DNA from: Candidatus Aenigmatarchaeota archaeon
Lineage (GTDB): Archaea > Aenigmatarchaeota > Aenigmatarchaeia > QMZP01 > JAFGSV01
NCBI GenBank assembly: GCA_016934325.1
Contig: JAFGSV010000006.1
Span: forward strand, 1-51,596
Direction of reading: 5' to 3'
DNA: 51,596 nucleotides
The translations under genes were made by a program, and so were the position numbers. Below are positions 21,879-51,596 of the stretch, one piece after another (within the stretch, counting starts at the first letter, position 1; the number at the start of each line of letters is the position of its first letter). A model generated the notes under the pieces. That model had not been told where the DNA came from. It did not search any database and was given only the letters and a program-made list of their open reading frames with translations.

Positions 21879-22007
21879 ACGATCTCTTTGTCCGCTTGAT
21901 ATTTAAATGATTAATTTGCTAGTATATCCTGTTATCTTTATATTCTTCTCCAGGAATATATTCTTGTATTTGAAATTCGGGCTGCGTTTCCATGTAGCGG
22001 AGGCAAG

Positions 22008-23189
22008 ATGAAAATATTGATGTTCGGCTGGGAATTCCCCCCGTTCAACACGGGCGGACTTGGGACCCACTGCTACGGCCTGACCAAGGCGCTGCACGGC
22101 AAGGACGTCGACGTGACGTTCGTCATGCCGAGGTTCGGCAAGGACTTCAAGCACGGGTTCATCAAGATCATCCACGCCGAGGAGGGCAAGTTCGTGGAGA
22201 TCAAATCGAGCCTTACCCCTTACATCCCTTCTTACGACGTGAAGTTCATATCCAGGAACGGGGACACGGATGAGCCGTACGGCAGGGATTTCCTGAGCGA
22301 CGTGAACAAGTACACGGAGCTTGCAGCGAGGGCGGTCGCCAGGGAGGATTGCAGCGTTATCCACTGCCATGACTGGATGACCTTCCCGGTGGGGATCAAG
22401 GTCAAGCATGAGAAGAAGAAGCCCCTTGTCGTCACGGTCCATTCCACGGAGTTCGACAGGAGCCCGCTTTCGCCGAACCCGTGGATCAGCCACATAGAGT
22501 GGAAGGGCATGTACGAGGCTGACCGGATAATCACGGTCAGCAACTACATGAAGAAGAGGATCATGGACAAGTACAACGTCCCGGGGGGCAAGATCACGGT
22601 CATCTACAATTCCGTGGAGGCCGATCTTTACGGTGGCGACAGGGTCGATTTCGGGCTCGACGAGCGGGTGGTCCTCTTCCTGGGCAGGCTGACCATACAG
22701 AAGGGCGCTGACTATCTTCTCAGGGCCGCGAAGAAGGTGCTTGAAGTCGAGAAGGACGTGCGTTTCATCTTCGTCGGGACGGGCCACATGCTTCCGGAGC
22801 TCATAAACCTCAGCATAGACCTGGGCATATCCGAGCATGTGATATTCACCGGATACCAAGAGAGCATCGCCGAATACTACCGGATGGCCGACGTCTATGT
22901 CATGCCATCGGTTTCCGAGCCCTTCGGCATCGTTGCGCTGGAGGCCATGGCCTCGGGGCTGCCCGTAATCATCTCCAAGCAGTCGGGTTGCTCCGAGATA
23001 ATGAGGCATGCGATGAAGGTCGATTTCTGGGACGTGGACAGCATGGCGGACAAGGTTCTGGGCGTCCTGAGCTACGGAGCGATGAGGGAAGAGATGTCGA
23101 GGAACGGGCTCAAGGAGATAAAGGGGATAAACTGGGGAAAGACCGCCGAGCAGACCATCGGGGTCTATTCCAGCTTCGGGGGTGCCTAG
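22008..23189 (+). CDS. Glycosyltransferase family 4 / glycogen synthase-like
   Basis: MKILMFGWEFPPFNTGGLGTHCYGLTKAL, SVIHCHDWMTFPVGI, LFLGRLTIQKGADYLLRA, VMPSVSEPFGIVALEAMASGLPVIIS. Confidence 0.88.
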   Translation: MKILMFGWEFPPFNTGGLGTHCYGLTKALHGKDVDVTFVMPRFGKDFKHGFIKIIHAEEGKFVEIKSSLTPYIPSYDVKFISRNGDTDEPYGRDFLSDVNKYTELAARAVAREDCSVIHCHDWMTFPVGIKVKHEKKKPLVVTVHSTEFDRSPLSPNPWISHIEWKGMYEADRIITVSNYMKKRIMDKYNVPGGKITVIYNSVEADLYGGDRVDFGLDERVVLFLGRLTIQKGADYLLRAAKKVLEVEKDVRFIFVGTGHMLPELINLSIDLGISEHVIFTGYQESIAEYYRMADVYVMPSVSEPFGIVALEAMASGLPVIISKQSGCSEIMRHAMKVDFWDVDSMADKVLGVLSYGAMREEMSRNGLKEIKGINWGKTAEQTIGVYSSFGGA

Positions 23190-23190
23190 C

Positions 23191-24360
23191 ATGCCGGCCG
23201 TCTGCTTCTACTTCCAGGTCCACCAGCCGATAAGGCTCAGGAGGTTCAGCGCCTTCGACATAGGGAAGAACAGCAACTATTTCGATGACGATATGAACAG
23301 GTTCTACATGGAGAGGGCAGCCAAGAAGTGCTACCTCCCTACGAACAAGAAGCTCATGGAGCTCATCGACGCCCACAACGGAAGGTTCAAGGTGTCCTTC
23401 TCGCTGAGCGGGGTCTTCCTTGAGCAGCTGGAGATGTTCTGCCCGGATGTCCTGGAGTCATTCCAGCGCCTCGTCGACACAGGCAACGTTGAGGTCTTCA
23501 ACGAGACGTATTACCACAGCCTGGCTTACCTGATATCGAAGAGGGATTTCGTTGACCAGGTCAGGATGCACAGGAAGAAGATCAGATCGGCCCTCGGAAT
23601 CAGGGCGAATGTGTTCAGGAACACGGAGGCGATGTACAGCAACGACATCGCTAAGCTGGTGGAGGAGCTCGGCTACAAGGCGATCATCGCGGAGGGCCTG
23701 CAGCACGTGCTCGACTGGAGGTCCGCCAACTACCTGTACAGGGCCAAGGGATCGGGCATCCCGGTGTTCCTGAGGAACTTCAAGATGAGCGACGACATAG
23801 CCTTCAGGTTCAGCACACGCGATTGGGAGGAATGGCCCCTCACCGCCGACAAATTCGCCTCGTGGCTGTCGCGGGCCGACGGGCAGGTGGTGAACCTGTT
23901 CATGGACTACGAGACGTTCGGGGAGCACCAGTGGGCGGAGACGGGGATATTCGATTTCCTGCATCATCTGCCGTCTGAATGCCTCAAGCACCCGAACCTC
24001 AGCTTCATGACTATAAGCGAGGCCCTGAGCACCTTCAGCCCCGTGGGCGATTTCGACGTGCCCCATCTCAGCTCATGGGCAGACGTCCACAGGGACCTCA
24101 GCGCCTGGCTGGAGAACAAGATGCAGGTGCAGGCGTTCGAGGAGGTCAAGCGGCTCGAATCGGCCATCAATAAGAGGAAGAACAGGCACCTGCTGCATAC
24201 GTGGAGGAAGCTGCTCACTTCCGACCACTTCTACTACATGTGCACGAAGTGGTTCGCGGACGGGGATGTCCACAAGTACTTCAACTATTACGACACGCCC
24301 TACGACGCGTTCCTGAACTACATGAACATATTGACGGACCTCAAGAGCAGGATTCAGTGA
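23191..24360 (+). CDS. Glycoside hydrolase family 57 (alpha-amylase-like)
   Basis: VCFYFQVHQPIRLRRFSAFDIG, FNETYYHSLAYL, FRNTEAMYSNDIAKLVEELGYKAIIAEGL, MDYETFGEHQWAETGIFDFL. Confidence 0.88.
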   Translation: MPAVCFYFQVHQPIRLRRFSAFDIGKNSNYFDDDMNRFYMERAAKKCYLPTNKKLMELIDAHNGRFKVSFSLSGVFLEQLEMFCPDVLESFQRLVDTGNVEVFNETYYHSLAYLISKRDFVDQVRMHRKKIRSALGIRANVFRNTEAMYSNDIAKLVEELGYKAIIAEGLQHVLDWRSANYLYRAKGSGIPVFLRNFKMSDDIAFRFSTRDWEEWPLTADKFASWLSRADGQVVNLFMDYETFGEHQWAETGIFDFLHHLPSECLKHPNLSFMTISEALSTFSPVGDFDVPHLSSWADVHRDLSAWLENKMQVQAFEEVKRLESAINKRKNRHLLHTWRKLLTSDHFYYMCTKWFADGDVHKYFNYYDTPYDAFLNYMNILTDLKSRIQ

Positions 24361-26147
24361 CGCCCGGTCGCCTTGTCATAGGCAAGAAGATAGTTCTCGT
24401 ACATGAAGCTCCAGTCTGCGGCCGCAGATAGCTCTTTCGCCCTGGCGGCCCCCGCGAGCCTGTCATTCTCGCTCATGCCGCAGATGCTGAAGAGAACGTC
24501 ACCGAGCTGGGAGACCACATCATCGTACCTCCTCTTGTCCCTCTCCAGCACAACGATGCTGGCGGGGCCCTTCCCAATCTTCGATCTTATGAACTTGCCG
24601 AATCCGCTGAGGTCCGTGGTCACCGACAGGAGGCCAAGGGCCGCCGCCTCGAGGGGGGTGTAGCCCCAGGATTCGTAGTAGGAAGGGAAGACGCCGACGT
24701 CGCAGCCGGCCATGGCGTTGTAGTACTTGAGCTCGAGCAGCTCGTCTTTCTCGGAAAGGTAGGCGGGGTAGTATATCACCTTGACCATGTCGCCTTCGCC
24801 GTTCAGCAGGCCGTTCTTCGCCAGGGCATGCGTGATGCTGTTCTCGTGCATCTCGAAGGGGGTTATGGGCGGGTTCTCTCCGCTCCTCTTCTTCAGCCGG
24901 GCCCCCATTTCGCGCAGCCTCTGCAGGAAAGACGAGTCGAACACGTCGCTCTTCCTTGGCTCCTCCCCCCTGATGAAAGACTTCAGGACCTCCTTCTCTA
25001 TCCTACCGGTCTCGTCCTCAATCGCCTTCCCTACGTCCTCGAACAGCTGGAGGTGCTCGACGACCGTTGGCTTCTTTCCATCGGTACCAGCCGGCACCCA
25101 TATGAAGGCGAAAACGTTCCTGCCGCTGCCGGAATCCCTGAGCCTCTCGTTCAGCCTTCCGAGGGCGTCTATGAAGACGTCGATGCCCTTGTTGCGCAGC
25201 TCGTACCTGCCCGAGATGAAGCAGACGAGGCTTCCGTCCGCTTCTACGTCGTAGTACGGCAGGAAGTACCCGAGCAGGAAGTTTTTTATCCTCTCCCTGC
25301 AGCTTTCATGCATCTTCCGCAGGACATCCGCCCGCGGGAACTTGTTCATGTCGAGCCCGTTCATGGTCAGCACCTCCGGCTGCCTGCCCAGCATGAACCT
25401 GCACTCCCTCGCCATTATCTCCGATACGGTCGTGAACACGTCAGCGTTGACCGCGCCCGCCTTCTCCATCATGTGCTTCGCCTGCACCTTGTAATGATAT
25501 GCCTTCTTGTCGTCAACGACGGCGCCTTGATGCAGCCCCTTGTCGATTATCTCGTAAAGGTCCTCCTTGCCGGTCTCCGCTATTGTCCTTCCGAGGACCG
25601 TCGAATGGGTGGTGAACACCGTTGCCACGCCCGCCTTCTTCCTCTTGAGGTACAGCAGTCCGGCGCAGCTGAGCCATTCATGGAAGTGCGCGACGACCTT
25701 GTTCTTGAAGGCGCCGCTGCCCACCAGCTCCCGTATGAGAATGCCGACGGCCCATGACCACGCGACTGGCTCGTTGAACCATTCGTCCGAATGGAGCGAG
25801 TCTATCTTGTAATGCTCCCAGAGCTCGTACTTGATGTCATCCACCTTCCTCTTGATCGACGCCGGGTCGACCAGTATGGCCCTCGGGCTCTTATCGATCA
25901 GCCATCTGCCGTAATGGCATTCGATGCCGTGCTTGCTGTGCAGCTTCGAGAAGACCCTTTTCAGGGGGGCCGGGACGTTCTCCGGCCTGAACTCCGCTTT
26001 CGCCTTGTCCTCGTAATAGGGGCCGACCGTGTAGTAATCCTTAATCCTTTCGAGCGCGTACGAGGCCTTCGACACAAGAACGGTATAGATGCCCCCGACC
26101 TTGTTTGAGACCTCGTAGCTCACCTCGAAAAGGGTGATGTCCTTCAA
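24354..26147 (-). CDS. GT3-like glycogen/starch synthase
   Basis: FEVSYEVSNKVGGIYTVLVSKA, VAHFHEWLSCAGLLYLKRKKAGVATVFTTHSTVLGRTIAE, VGVFPSYYESWGYTPLEAAALGLLSVTTDLSGFG. Confidence 0.88.
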   Translation of the reverse strand: MKDITLFEVSYEVSNKVGGIYTVLVSKASYALERIKDYYTVGPYYEDKAKAEFRPENVPAPLKRVFSKLHSKHGIECHYGRWLIDKSPRAILVDPASIKRKVDDIKYELWEHYKIDSLHSDEWFNEPVAWSWAVGILIRELVGSGAFKNKVVAHFHEWLSCAGLLYLKRKKAGVATVFTTHSTVLGRTIAETGKEDLYEIIDKGLHQGAVVDDKKAYHYKVQAKHMMEKAGAVNADVFTTVSEIMARECRFMLGRQPEVLTMNGLDMNKFPRADVLRKMHESCRERIKNFLLGYFLPYYDVEADGSLVCFISGRYELRNKGIDVFIDALGRLNERLRDSGSGRNVFAFIWVPAGTDGKKPTVVEHLQLFEDVGKAIEDETGRIEKEVLKSFIRGEEPRKSDVFDSSFLQRLREMGARLKKRSGENPPITPFEMHENSITHALAKNGLLNGEGDMVKVIYYPAYLSEKDELLELKYYNAMAGCDVGVFPSYYESWGYTPLEAAALGLLSVTTDLSGFGKFIRSKIGKGPASIVVLERDKRRYDDVVSQLGDVLFSICGMSENDRLAGAARAKELSAAADWSFMYENYLLAYDKATGRH

Positions 26148-45304: not shown

Positions 45305-46183
45305 CTATCTCCTGATCTCGCCGCGCACGAAATCTATTATCCTCTGAGCGACGTTGATGTTCGTGGCCTTCTCGATCCCCTTCAGGCCGGGGTTTATGTT
45401 CGCCTCAATCACGTAGGCCTTTCCCTTGCTCTCGACCATGTCTATGGCGCATATCTTGCTTCCAATCGCCTTTGCCGCCTTGAGGACGATCTCCCTCATC
45501 TCGGGGCTGAGCTTGAAATCGACGCCCCTCCCCCCGAGATGTATGTTGGCCTTTTGCTCCCCCGAGTTCGCGATCCTCTTGAAGGAAGCGATGACCTCGT
45601 CCCCCGCGACTATCCCCCTTATGTCCTCCCCGGGATTGGGAAGGTACTTCTCGATGAGGATCTCCTGCTTGAGGGTCTTCATCGTGTGTATCGTCGCCTT
45701 GGCCGCTTCCTTGCTCTCCATTATCATGACGCCCTCGCCGCCGAACCCGGACAGCAGCTTCATGATGACGGGCATCTTCTGCTTGTCTATAATGCCGCCC
45801 GCCATATCCTTCGAGCCGGTTATCCATGTCTCGGGAACCGGGATGTCCCTCCTTACCATCTCGATCAGCGTGAGGAACTTGTTGTGCGCGGTGACTATGC
45901 TGGACGCTGAAAAGGGCTTCCTTACCCCGGTCTCGTCCAGGAACCGCATCACGTGGTATCCGATCTGCGCCCTCTTGGAATCGATCCTCGGCAATATATA
46001 GTCGTAATCCAGGATGCTCCTGCCCTCCCACATGGCGTCCATCCCGTCGTTCACCTTCAGCATCACCTCTGCGACGGGGACAAGGCAGGCCTTCTTGAAC
46101 TGCTTGCGGGCCTCCTCCAGCAACCGCTTCGTGGTATAGCCCGCAGCATCATTCCCCGGGCCCAGTATTGCCAGCTTCATCAT
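45305..46183 (-). CDS. RimK-family ATP-grasp ligase (paralog 2)
   Basis: YDYILPRIDSKRAQIGYHVMRFLDETGVRKPFSASSIVTAHNKFLTL...MPVIMKLLSGFGGEGVMIMES...EILIEKYLPNPGEDIRGIVAGDEVIASFKRIA...AYVIEANINPGLKGIEKAT. Confidence 0.9.
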   Translation of the reverse strand: MMKLAILGPGNDAAGYTTKRLLEEARKQFKKACLVPVAEVMLKVNDGMDAMWEGRSILDYDYILPRIDSKRAQIGYHVMRFLDETGVRKPFSASSIVTAHNKFLTLIEMVRRDIPVPETWITGSKDMAGGIIDKQKMPVIMKLLSGFGGEGVMIMESKEAAKATIHTMKTLKQEILIEKYLPNPGEDIRGIVAGDEVIASFKRIANSGEQKANIHLGGRGVDFKLSPEMREIVLKAAKAIGSKICAIDMVESKGKAYVIEANINPGLKGIEKATNINVAQRIIDFVRGEIRR

Positions 46184-46225
46184 ATCATCCCGAAGCATCT
46201 ATTTGAAACAATGACTTAAAAATAG

Positions 46226-48359: not shown

Positions 48360-48953
48360 TCAGCTATACCTTGGGGTGCATGCGACCATCTGGCTGTAAT
48401 AGCACCCGCAACCAGTGCAAAAACCCCAGCCGCCATTTACCGACCTGTAGCAGTAGCTGTAAGCGCTTTGCTGACCCTCGCACGGAAGGCCGGAGCAGGC
48501 TGAGTACATGCTCGGGCAGTCATAATACAGGGGAGCGCCGATGTCGACCGGCACGCAGCTCCAGGCGGATCCCGTCCATTTTGGCAGGCTGTAATCGTCG
48601 CAGTTCGGCGGCAGGGACACGGCAGCCGGCCAGCTGCTCTTGCAGCTGGTGCCTATGCAAATCTGGCTGCATCTCGTAGGCTGGTCGCATCTTGTATCTT
48701 GGAAGCTGGGCCAGAAGTAGCGGCAATCGCCTCCCAGGCAAGTCTGGTCGATTCTGATGGAGGGGATCGTTCCGCTCCAGTCGATCTCGCCGACGTCGTG
48801 CCCGAGTATGTCCGGGCCCAGGCCTGACTCGTATGCTATGACAAAACCGCCGCCGAGAGAGAAGAATATGGCTGCTATCAAGACCGGCCACAACGGCCCG
48901 TCCCGGATCCTCTTCCTGGTTTTCATCTTCATGTCACGTCTCCTATCAGTCAT
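48360..48953 (-). CDS. Cys-rich membrane-anchored secreted protein, paralog A
   Basis: N-terminal TM, GHDVGEIDWSGTIPSIRIDQTCLGGDCRYFWPSFQDTRCD...CIGTSCKSSWP...WGFCTGCGCYYSQMVACTPRYS; 16 cysteines after the anchor. Confidence 0.85.
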   Translation of the reverse strand: MTDRRRDMKMKTRKRIRDGPLWPVLIAAIFFSLGGGFVIAYESGLGPDILGHDVGEIDWSGTIPSIRIDQTCLGGDCRYFWPSFQDTRCDQPTRCSQICIGTSCKSSWPAAVSLPPNCDDYSLPKWTGSAWSCVPVDIGAPLYYDCPSMYSACSGLPCEGQQSAYSYCYRSVNGGWGFCTGCGCYYSQMVACTPRYS

Positions 48954-49518
48954 AGAGCGGTTCGCAGCTGTACGGCATGTTGATGTAGCAGCCGCAGCCT
49001 ATGCAAAAGTCATAAAACGCACGGTAATGCCCGTAGCAGACAGAGCCTGCCTGGATCTGCCCATTGCACTTCGGGTTCTGGGTCGCGCAGCTGTCCGCCT
49101 CGTTGGGGCACCTGTACCTGGTGGGTCCGGCGACGTTCACGTGCTCGCACGCCCACCCCCCGCCGCTCCTGACGAGTATCTCGTTCCCCGAGCAGACCGG
49201 TGGAGCCGCGACCGAAGTGGGCCATATGTCCCTGCACACAGATCCTATGCAGAGCTTGTGGCAATCGCTTGCGGCGGAGTCGCACCTGGTGTCCGTGAAG
49301 ACCGGCCAAGCCGCCCTGCAGGTTCCCTGCATGCAGAGCTGATCGGTATTGATAGCCGGTATGAGTTCCGTCCAGTTCATCTCTTCAATGTCATGGCCGT
49401 GCCACGGGGGGTTTTCGGATCCGAACGCGAACACGAAGACCGACCCGGAAACGAAGGCCAGCAGGGCTATCAATATCAGCAAGAGTTCCTTTCTCCGCGT
49501 CTTCTTGTTGATCTTCAT
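48946..49518 (-). CDS. Cys-rich membrane-anchored secreted protein, paralog B
   Basis: N-terminal TM, HGHDIEEMNWTELIPAINTDQLCMQGTCRAAWPVFTDTRCD...CIGSVCRDIWP...YDFCIGCGCYINMPYSCEPLYD; 16 cysteines aligned with A and C. Confidence 0.85.
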   Translation of the reverse strand: MKINKKTRRKELLLILIALLAFVSGSVFVFAFGSENPPWHGHDIEEMNWTELIPAINTDQLCMQGTCRAAWPVFTDTRCDSAASDCHKLCIGSVCRDIWPTSVAAPPVCSGNEILVRSGGGWACEHVNVAGPTRYRCPNEADSCATQNPKCNGQIQAGSVCYGHYRAFYDFCIGCGCYINMPYSCEPLYD

Positions 49519-49531
49519 TCATTCCCGCCTT

Positions 49532-50095
49532 TCAGGTATAGACCGGCCTGCAGCTGTGGCTCACCGACACATAGCAGCCGCAGCCGGTGCAAAAGTCGGT
49601 GAACGCCTGCCGCTGCCCATTGCAGTAGGGTATGGCGCTCCTCTGCCCCTTGCACGGATACGATTGGACGCAGTTGTTGGTCAAGCTGGGGCATTGGTAA
49701 TACAAAGGGCCGTTTATGTTCACCAGGGAGCAAGTCCATGCGCTTCCTGTCCATCTGGGCACATTCTCACCGCTGCATGTCGGGGGCACGGGAAGCATGA
49801 AAGGCCAGCCGGTCCTGCAGTCGGAGTAGATGCAGACATGGCTGCACCTGCCGGCTACATCGCATCTCGTGTCTGTCGCGGACGGCCAGACCGTCCGGCA
49901 GGTCCCGGAAATGCAAATCTGATTCGTGCGGATCAGGGGGATGGTCTTGCTCCAGTCGATCTCGCCGACGTCGTGCCCATGCAGAACAGGGTCATCGGAG
50001 CCCGTGGCCACAACGAATCCGGACCCTATCAGAAAAATCACTGACAACAAGAGAACGAGACAGTGTTCCTTCATGATTTCAATGTTTATTTCCAT
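49532..50095 (-). CDS. Cys-rich membrane-anchored secreted protein, paralog C
   Basis: N-terminal TM, HGHDVGEIDWSKTIPLIRTNQICISGTCRTVWPSATDTRCD...CIYSDCRTGWP...TDFCTGCGCYVSVSHSCRPVYT; 16 cysteines after the anchor. Confidence 0.85.
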   Translation of the reverse strand: MEINIEIMKEHCLVLLLSVIFLIGSGFVVATGSDDPVLHGHDVGEIDWSKTIPLIRTNQICISGTCRTVWPSATDTRCDVAGRCSHVCIYSDCRTGWPFMLPVPPTCSGENVPRWTGSAWTCSLVNINGPLYYQCPSLTNNCVQSYPCKGQRSAIPYCNGQRQAFTDFCTGCGCYVSVSHSCRPVYT

Positions 50096-50232
50096 AATTA
50101 ATAATTATTCCGCTTGATATATTAATCTTAAATTGGTGTGCTTCCACATTCGACTGCTCAGTGAATCGAGATGGATTCTGCAAGCACAACGGTATCAGAA
50201 TCCCGAAAATGAATCACGCGGGGTTCGCCTCA

Positions 50233-50874
50233 TCACACAACCCTGCAGCACCTGGCATAGGCACCCGTTGCAATGGTCGGGGATATGTATGCAGCCCTGC
50301 ATTCATAGCCGTTGCCAGATACGTAATTAGAATGCCAGCCAGTCCCATAACCGTCGTGTTCTGATCTGCAGCCCCCACCGGTGACAAAATAGCCTGACGG
50401 ACAAGTCGCTGTGACAGGTGTTTGATAATTGCTACCCCCTGAAACATGCACCGTGGTGCACTGAAAGGCAGCGCCTGCCAACCCATCCACATAACCCTTG
50501 GTCGCGGCGTCGGTACTGGCGGAGGGGCTGGCCACGCTGGTGATTCTATGACCGTTCATGTTTAGATTCGCGGTCGCGATATGGTTGCCGAGGTTGTCCC
50601 CGGAATCGCTCTCGCACACCACTGTCCCGTCCGCGTTAATAACCCTGATGGAGTTGCCGGCCGCGCACGTTCCGGTAACCCTGCTCTGCACGTTCTCAAG
50701 CTCTCCTATGCTATGCCCATGTTCGAGCGGGTTAGTCCCGCCATAAGCAATCACGTAGGATGTCCCCAGCAATAATAGCATTATGGTAAGTACAATAACC
50801 ATGTAGCGGTTTGTCTTGTCAACTTCAAGTTTGAGATGTTTAATGAGTTTGCTTTTCGATTTCTTATCATTCAT
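50233..50874 (-). CDS. Membrane-anchored secreted protein D (shares N-terminal GHxxxE module; tail-fibre-like middle)
   Basis: N-terminal TM, VIAYGGTNPLEHGHSIGELENV...LNMNGHRITSVASPSASTDAATKGYVDGL...CPSGYFVTGGGCRS...YARCCRVV; 'ITSVASPSxxTDAATKGYVD' resembles phage tail-fibre/shufflon-type segments. Confidence 0.82.
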   Translation of the reverse strand: MNDKKSKSKLIKHLKLEVDKTNRYMVIVLTIMLLLLGTSYVIAYGGTNPLEHGHSIGELENVQSRVTGTCAAGNSIRVINADGTVVCESDSGDNLGNHIATANLNMNGHRITSVASPSASTDAATKGYVDGLAGAAFQCTTVHVSGGSNYQTPVTATCPSGYFVTGGGCRSEHDGYGTGWHSNYVSGNGYECRAAYISPTIATGAYARCCRVV

Positions 50875-51016: not shown

Positions 51017-51033
51017 TATATGATTTATATAAT

Positions 51034-51085
51034 AAATCAATAATGTAAATCAATAATGTAAATCAATAATGTAAATCAATAATGT
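51034..51085. repeat. 4 x 13-bp perfect tandem repeat (aaatcaataatgt)
   Basis: Read directly: units at 51034, 51047, 51060 and 51073. Confidence 0.93.
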
Positions 51086-51105
51086 TCTTCAGCGTAGTGT
51101 TTTAG

Positions 51106-51596
51106 TCAAAACGGCTTGCTAACGCAGCAGGATCCGCAAGGCCCTCCCTGGGACCAGCAGCTCGCGCCGCACGAACCAGTATCCGAATACGCCGCGCATG
51201 GAGCCATTTGTCTTGACACGAGCCCTGGTCAGAGGGCCCGCATCTGCATATCGAATCACCTGTATAAGGTTCAGCGACGCTGACGCATAGGGCAGATGTG
51301 GTCGAAGGATGCCTAGAGGACCCCGGGTGCCCTGGGGACCCCTGAACTCCACCCATGCGCCGCTCTTGCAGACGTACACCCTGTGGTTGTCGCTGTCGTA
51401 ATAGATGGCTCCATTGTGGCTTGAGCTGCATGAGGCGCTGGACCTGGGGATAATCCTGATCGTCCCTGCCACCGTGAGACGGTCCGTGACGCTCGGGCCG
51501 GATACTCCGACGCCAATCTTGCCATTGACGATAAGGTTGCCCGGAACAGGGTCGCTCCAGTCGAACTCATCGACTGAATGCCCCATAACTACGGGA
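51106..51596 (-). pseudogene. Protein E of the same N-terminal family, 5' truncated by window edge; Cys-rich C-terminus split across three frames
   Basis: Window edge reads PVVMGHSVDEFDWSDPVPGNLIVNGKIGVGVSGPSVTDRLTVAGTIRIIPRSSASCSSSHNGAIYYDSDNHRVYVCKSGAWVEFRGPQG in frame. Continuation in the 51102 frame: STTSALCVSVAEPYTGDSICRCGPSDQGSCQDK. Continuation in the third frame: MAPCAAYSDTGSCGASCWSQGGPCGSCCVSKPF*, stop 51106-51108. Confidence 0.6.

Follow-up and report, generated by a model that had tools for sequence, protein, structure and literature searches.

A tandem array of small exported cysteine-rich paralogs with fibre-like stalk modules in an Aenigmatarchaeota archaeon

Gene organisation at the contig end

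Three genes, C, B and A, lie head-to-tail on the minus strand near one end of a 51,596-nucleotide contig (JAFGSV010000006.1, assembly GCA_016934325.1) of a Candidatus Aenigmatarchaeota archaeon; this whole stretch is referred to below as the window. As an initial annotation made from the letters alone had proposed, all three open reading frames are present and their products are paralogs, alignable over their full length with 40-48% identity (Table 1). The motifs listed in that annotation were likewise all recovered, namely GHD[VI]xE[IM][DN]W[ST], C-x4-C-[RK]-x2-WP (twice), DTRCD and FC-x-GCGCY...C-x-P-x-Y. So was the even and fixed set of 16 cysteines: all 16 columns are invariant across A, B and C, and a 17th cysteine in gene C lies within the signal peptide. 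In the three-protein alignment, 16 of the 17 cysteine-containing columns are invariant versus 47 of the 169 other ungapped columns, and cysteine makes up 10% of the mature proteins, which are about 157 residues long, versus 0.86% for 16 genes nearby (binomial P about 1e-12). Thus, neither the fixation nor the enrichment of the cysteines is a matter of chance.

The longest open reading frame of gene A spans 48360-48953, and an 8-nt overlap with gene B, annotated alongside the 13-nt C-B gap, arises only from its start at 48953. The start at 48932, in contrast, aligns with those of genes B and C and is preceded by a GGAG box. With this start, gene B is flanked on either side by a gap of 13 nt and the overlap disappears, while the other 13-nt gap stands as annotated. 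That the two gaps are equally long and both contain an SD-like sequence would fit tandem duplication of one unit, and the reading of the genes as one operon is plausible. The TATA-like element annotated upstream of gene C is present and has no second exact match in the window, but the motif itself is weak, with 3 matches at up to one mismatch versus 1.67 expected. Gene C has no SD; the TATA-like element would place the transcript start near its ATG, and the gene is possibly leaderless. When the window was scanned for Rfam families and tRNAs, neither gave a match.

Table 1 Coordinates of the array and of related features (window positions unless a locus is given)
Feature	Position	Strand	Description
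Gene C	49532..50095	-	first of the trio, 187 aa; signal peptide residues 1-30 (VVA/T), GHDVGEIDWS, two disulfide-hairpin modules (predicted), WTGSAWTC loop, 8-Cys tip
Gene C stalk	49799..49921	-	C-x4-C-RxxWP / DTRCD...C / C-x4-C-RxxWP
Gene C 8-Cys tip	49535..49708	-	YYQCP...FCTGCGCY...C-x-P-x-Y
C-B gap	49519..49531	-	13 nt, AAGGCGGGAATGA, with SD-like AAGGCGGG
Gene B	48946..49518	-	second paralog, 190 aa, architecture as gene C
Gene B stalk modules	49216..49341	-	
Gene B 8-Cys tip	48949..49125	-	
B-A gap	48933..48945	-	13 nt, TAGGAGACGTGAC, with GGAG box
Gene A	48360..48932	-	third paralog, 190 aa, from the SD-supported, paralog-matching start
Gene A stalk modules	48624..48746	-	
Gene A 8-Cys tip	48363..48533	-	
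TATA-like element	50116..50125	-	TTAATATATC, 21-30 nt before the gene C ATG; weak motif
Gene D	50233..50874	-	leader as in the trio (YVIAYGGTNPLEHGHSIGEL), phage tail-fibre-like segment (NLNMNGHRITSVASPSASTDAATKGYVDG), CPSGYFVTGGGC...CC tip
Direct repeats	51030..51090		~14-base unit (ttgatttacattat), four direct copies in the interval from gene E to gene D
Gene E	51119..51596	-	5' end cut by the contig edge; GHSVDEFDW motif, fibre-like front
Retroelement	L072:9495-12263 (G000:C14, about 22000-24760)		RT of 374 aa, Avd-like gene
Retroelement template	around L072:10971-11070		
Retroelement variable repeat	around L072:11486-11585		inside an ORF reading ...CRWYSNDDSGRFDVGAYYGPDV...

The array comprises five genes rather than three, since genes D and E lie upstream of the trio on the same strand and belong, by their leader or GHSxxE motif, to the same leader family. 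Gene D matches PHROGs, the best tail family at 1.6e-5 and an unnamed family at 8e-10, and a relative at another locus (L012) also matches phage tail-fibre PHROGs. The cysteine-rich stretches of gene E sit in the two other frames, downstream of its fibre-like front; it is probably a broken gene or misassembled at the contig end. The genes around the array are cellular, encoding an MscS-type mechanosensitive channel, two RimK-like ligases, a protease and a helicase, and nothing in this neighbourhood points to adhesion. One of the RimK-like genes (45305-46198) lies 2.2 kb from the array; a related RimK-like gene in another genome adjoins a gene for a protein with two C-x4-C-RxxWP modules (L014:100-1803, G028:C110). 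Two further leader paralogs are found on other contigs of the source genome (1.24 Mb, 35 contigs, 79% complete). That on contig C17 is intact and encodes 137 aa, while that on C11 (L005:1501-1872, G000:C11) has an in-frame TAG directly past the signal peptide.

An export leader found in tandem arrays

The leader was aligned with 13 other members of the family. It has a charged start, a hydrophobic core and an invariant Ala, followed by roughly [YFT]-G-x-x-[ND]-P-x-x-x-G-H-[SDN]-x-x-E-[IVLM]. At the predicted cleavage site, Ala at -1 and V/A/S at -3 are found in 17/17 leaders, which fits cleavage by signal peptidase. The leader is thus probably a cleavable signal peptide, and the proteins would be released from the membrane instead of being held there by it. 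The secretion of the trio assumed in the initial annotation is thereby upheld, and its export is well supported by these sequence features; the N-terminal transmembrane anchor given to each protein there is not. No conserved [KR]G or E5, as in a class III prepilin motif, was seen in the aligned leaders.

The leader profile matches A, B, C, D and the C17 paralog at 2e-16 to 4e-21, values obtained for proteins that were all rows of the profile. That the family is real is instead indicated by independent matches in other genomes; an earlier profile of the whole trio had also matched foreign leaders. Members occur in 7/156 Aenigmatarchaeota genomes and in 51/371 genomes of the phylum that holds a Woesearchaeota locus, L040, the latter figure being a sample estimate from 371 genomes drawn evenly from a larger group. 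The 97 leader matches in this sample form 12 same-strand clusters in 11 genomes, versus about 0.2 chance pairs expected. Genome G500 has two leader-gene triplets, and G485 and G158 have one each. Those of G500 (L075:125-5810, G500:C3) are tightly packed, with tips that mostly end in a CC pair (CCK, CCE, CCR). L040 has four leader-family genes in a row, three of them with two CSQ[VIL]CIGxxC-type modules and with differing cysteine-rich tips. The arrays of L040, G500, G485 and G158 resemble the trio in that each is a run of short secreted paralogs that have NPxxxGH[SD]xxE[IV] and variable cysteine-containing C-termini; they differ from it in their tips, several of which are of the CPSGY..GGxC...CC type, and among the arrays read only L040 has doubled stalk modules. 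The initial annotation had made homologous arrays a test of its proposal; such arrays occur for the leader family and for the stalk module, but not for the tip. We found no description of the leader family in the open-access literature, an absence that is no proof of novelty.

Beside one leader-family gene (L018:233-1336, G031), a divergent gene encodes a membrane protein that, read by eye, looks like a thioredoxin or DsbA (MSYCPYGLQMEKAM). This protein could bear on disulfide formation.

Stalk modules and the eight-cysteine tip

The pattern DTRCD-x4-5-C / C-x4-C-[RK]-x2-WP recurs in Aenigmatarchaeota, Woesearchaeota, Pacearchaeota, Gracilibacteria and Portnoybacteria. In DPANN archaea as in candidate-phyla bacteria, fibre-like proteins also carry both C-x4-C-R/K-x2-WP hairpins and the DTRCD and WTGSAWxC loops, and single C-x4-C hairpins stand after a GIGTxxPxxxLDV repeat in long fibre-like proteins across the phylum. 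At two loci, L041 and L042, the module is carried on a type IV pilin front (GFSLAELL or GFSLIELL); in both, it is followed by repeats of the GTDGLPIISYYDxTNxDLKVxHC type. A relative, L011/L038, shares the architecture of leader, fibre repeat, two modules and cysteine-rich tip but is interrupted by stop codons. The annotation of a single 16-cysteine domain is not supported, since the first eight cysteines are part of short modules that fibre-like proteins elsewhere also have. Judged from these sequences, the 16 cysteines are split, eight in shared modules and eight in the tip.

Among the distinct sequences of relatives, the C-x4-C hairpin has both cysteines in 20, neither in 4 and a single one in 0 (Fisher P about 1e-4), a count in which the sequences are non-independent and the profiles favoured cysteine, although this bias hides single-cysteine forms less than cysteine-less ones, and the latter were found nonetheless. 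The four cysteine-less hairpins have N/L, T/T, S/Y and T/A at the cysteine positions. The turn carries GG, SG or similar, and positions i and i+5 oppose each other across a tight hairpin. Since the cysteines are present as both or neither at facing positions, a cross-strand disulfide is the natural reading of C-x4-C, and the predicted hairpin disulfides are well supported. Two AlphaFold models place hairpins at the C-x4-C sites, at a confidence (pLDDT 38 and 45) too low to bear on pairing. The DTRCD...C cysteines occur as a pair in relatives, with few cysteine-less cases, and in the C-x14-C WTGSAWxC loop (C107-C122 in gene C) both cysteines are present in all four true instances. The disulfides suggested in the initial annotation are likely, those within the tip being putative. 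For gene C the predicted pairs are C61-C66, C88-C93, C78-C84 and C107-C122, with four more inside the tip.

The tip, i.e. the last ~57 residues with eight cysteines, occurs only in the source genome among the searched genomes of its order and phylum, and has no match in viral contigs. Profile comparison with the tips of L040, gene D, G494 and L011 gave a best probability of 1.5%, none significant, and no claim is made for the likeness to the G494 tip that is apparent by eye. The tip is no more divergent between paralogs than the rest of the protein (39-47% versus 40-48% identity). Between the paralogs, dS is near saturation; dN/dS comes to about 0.25-0.39 overall, to 0.48-0.63 for the tip, and lies below 1 wherever it could be computed across the trio. 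The trio therefore consists of old duplicates under constraint, and such purifying selection on paralogs, alone, is no argument for an arms race. Surface display remains the likeliest setting, as first proposed, but the diversification proposed with it finds no support in these values.

That the cysteine domain belongs to no named family is supported by searches of Pfam, NCBIfam, PDB and PADLOC, none of which gave anything above threshold; DUF7107 (PF23416) reached 15.4 and 14.1 bits versus a gathering threshold of 24.6. With no PADLOC model matched, the defence role that had been considered was not sustained. The whole-trio alignment found no relative in 84,980 named genomes or in viral contigs, and there was no match for the stalk module or gene D in viral contigs, or for gene C in phage records. 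Against PHROGs, the trio gave nothing better than 0.06, and a tail-fibre repeat (GIGTxxP or NLxMNGxxI..DAATKGYVD) is not present in it. An identity of the trio as phage-type tail fibres was rejected for want of a PHROG match or viral relative, and in view of the cellular neighbours.

Targets of diversity-generating retroelements are known in DPANN archaea (PMC8144416), and the source genome has such an element on contig C14, with a reverse transcriptase, an accessory gene and a template/variable repeat pair. Over 100 extended bases this pair shows 22 A mismatches and 4 of other kinds; for the core 60 the counts are 8 and 0. When the reverse-transcriptase neighbourhood was compared with the window, allowing up to 4 non-A mismatches in 60, no template match appeared, and diversification of the trio by this element was dropped on that account. 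The idea of surface recognition is common to the known targets and the trio, but evidence for a C-type lectin fold, like a template match, is missing from the window.

Proposed function and alternatives

We propose that the products of the trio are small fibre-like proteins, stapled by disulfides, which this DPANN archaeon exports; they would have arisen by tandem duplication and be made from one operon. The signal peptide would be removed outside the membrane. The new, conserved N-terminus with GH[DS]xxEIDW, common to the family whatever the tip, might then dock to a surface partner. Behind it, two C-x4-C-stapled beta-hairpins, the DTRCD...C loop and the C-x14-C WTGSAWxC loop would form a short stalk presenting the C-terminal tip, whose eight cysteines likely make four disulfides and which may bind a ligand. 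The array would in this way supply several tips on one common stalk. A constant exported front, a stapled stalk, a variable cysteine-rich end and several copies per array together make up the layout of receptor-binding proteins or tip adhesins, and for this reason we favour surface recognition. We put the probability that the trio encodes secreted mini-fibres, stapled by disulfides and bearing exchangeable tips, that serve in recognition or adhesion at the cell surface at roughly 55%; attachment to a host cell would be one such role.

Several known systems provide comparisons. Pilus-tip adhesins such as PilV have shuffled C-termini on a constant front. Such a front with an exchangeable tip is what is proposed for the trio, and the stalk module does occur on a pilin front in L041/L042, but the trio has no prepilin leader. 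The likeness of the array layout to these adhesins, or to phage receptor-binding proteins, is put forward as an analogy. Modular surface proteins of a fibre-like kind, with GIGTxxPxxxLDV repeats and tail-fibre PHROGs such as phrog_9942, occur in DPANN archaea and candidate-phyla bacteria and share with the trio the export leader, the C-x4-C-RxxWP hairpins, a DTRCD...CSQVC module and a C-terminal tip; the trio lacks their GIGT repeats, is short at its mature length and has its own 8-Cys tip, not found elsewhere. Among DPANN archaea, LamG/PKD proteins have been credited with host contact and giant SPEARE proteins have been discussed in that role (PMC10266531), and cysteine-rich surface proteins have been proposed for host contact in Ca. 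Huberarchaeum (PMC6792436). Like the trio on our reading, these proteins are exported, are proposed to act in host contact and are in some cases cysteine-rich; the SPEARE and Huberarchaeum proteins are described as large, whereas those of the trio have ~190 residues.

Of the alternatives, the one that survives best, though we consider it unlikely, is that the proteins help to build the cell's own envelope, or an appendage resembling a pilus, and have no specific ligand. The stalk module on the type IV pilin front of L041/L042 agrees with this, and the common N-terminal motif would suit proteins that assemble into a larger structure; tips that differ strongly between arrays and genomes are nevertheless unlike a lattice protein, and the trio has no conserved prepilin cleavage motif. 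Somewhat less probable still is that the tips are small toxins or growth inhibitors directed at neighbours, with leader and stalk serving to export and present them. Polymorphic toxins have variable C-terminal ends on a conserved front, and the trio proteins are small, secreted, cysteine-rich and adjacent to one another. Gaps of 13 nt, however, leave no space for an immunity gene per copy, there is no match to a toxin family, and it is in fibre-like proteins and pilins, rather than in toxins, that the stalk modules recur.

A metal-binding or redox surface protein, in which the cysteines would act as ligands or active thiols rather than in disulfides, is improbable: the closely spaced FC-x-GCGC of the tip does recall some metal sites, but the hairpin cysteines are lost in pairs from a GG-turn hairpin, as fits cross-strand disulfides, and the protein is exported. 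Least probable in our estimate is a provirus remnant, in which an archaeal virus would have left its receptor-binding proteins behind in the chromosome, a reading which the tail-fibre PHROG matches of gene D and its relatives and the broken appearance of gene E would suit, but which is at odds with the lack of viral or phage relatives of trio, module, tip and gene D, with the signal peptide on each protein (tail fibres have none) and with the cellular genes around the array.

There is also a wider and more tentative possibility, which we would not yet back over its negation: the leader family may represent an undescribed, widespread DPANN recognition system, in which small secreted proteins in tandem arrays, with a common docking end and exchangeable disulfide-rich tips, would let each symbiont recognise its partner cell in the manner of receptor-binding proteins. 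Most surface proteins of ultra-small DPANN archaea lack annotation, and how these archaea recognise and hold their partners is an open question. The leader motif marks short, expressible secreted proteins with variable cysteine-rich ends, and thereby provides a list of candidates in many genomes, while the disulfide pairs predicted for the trio are amenable to laboratory tests.
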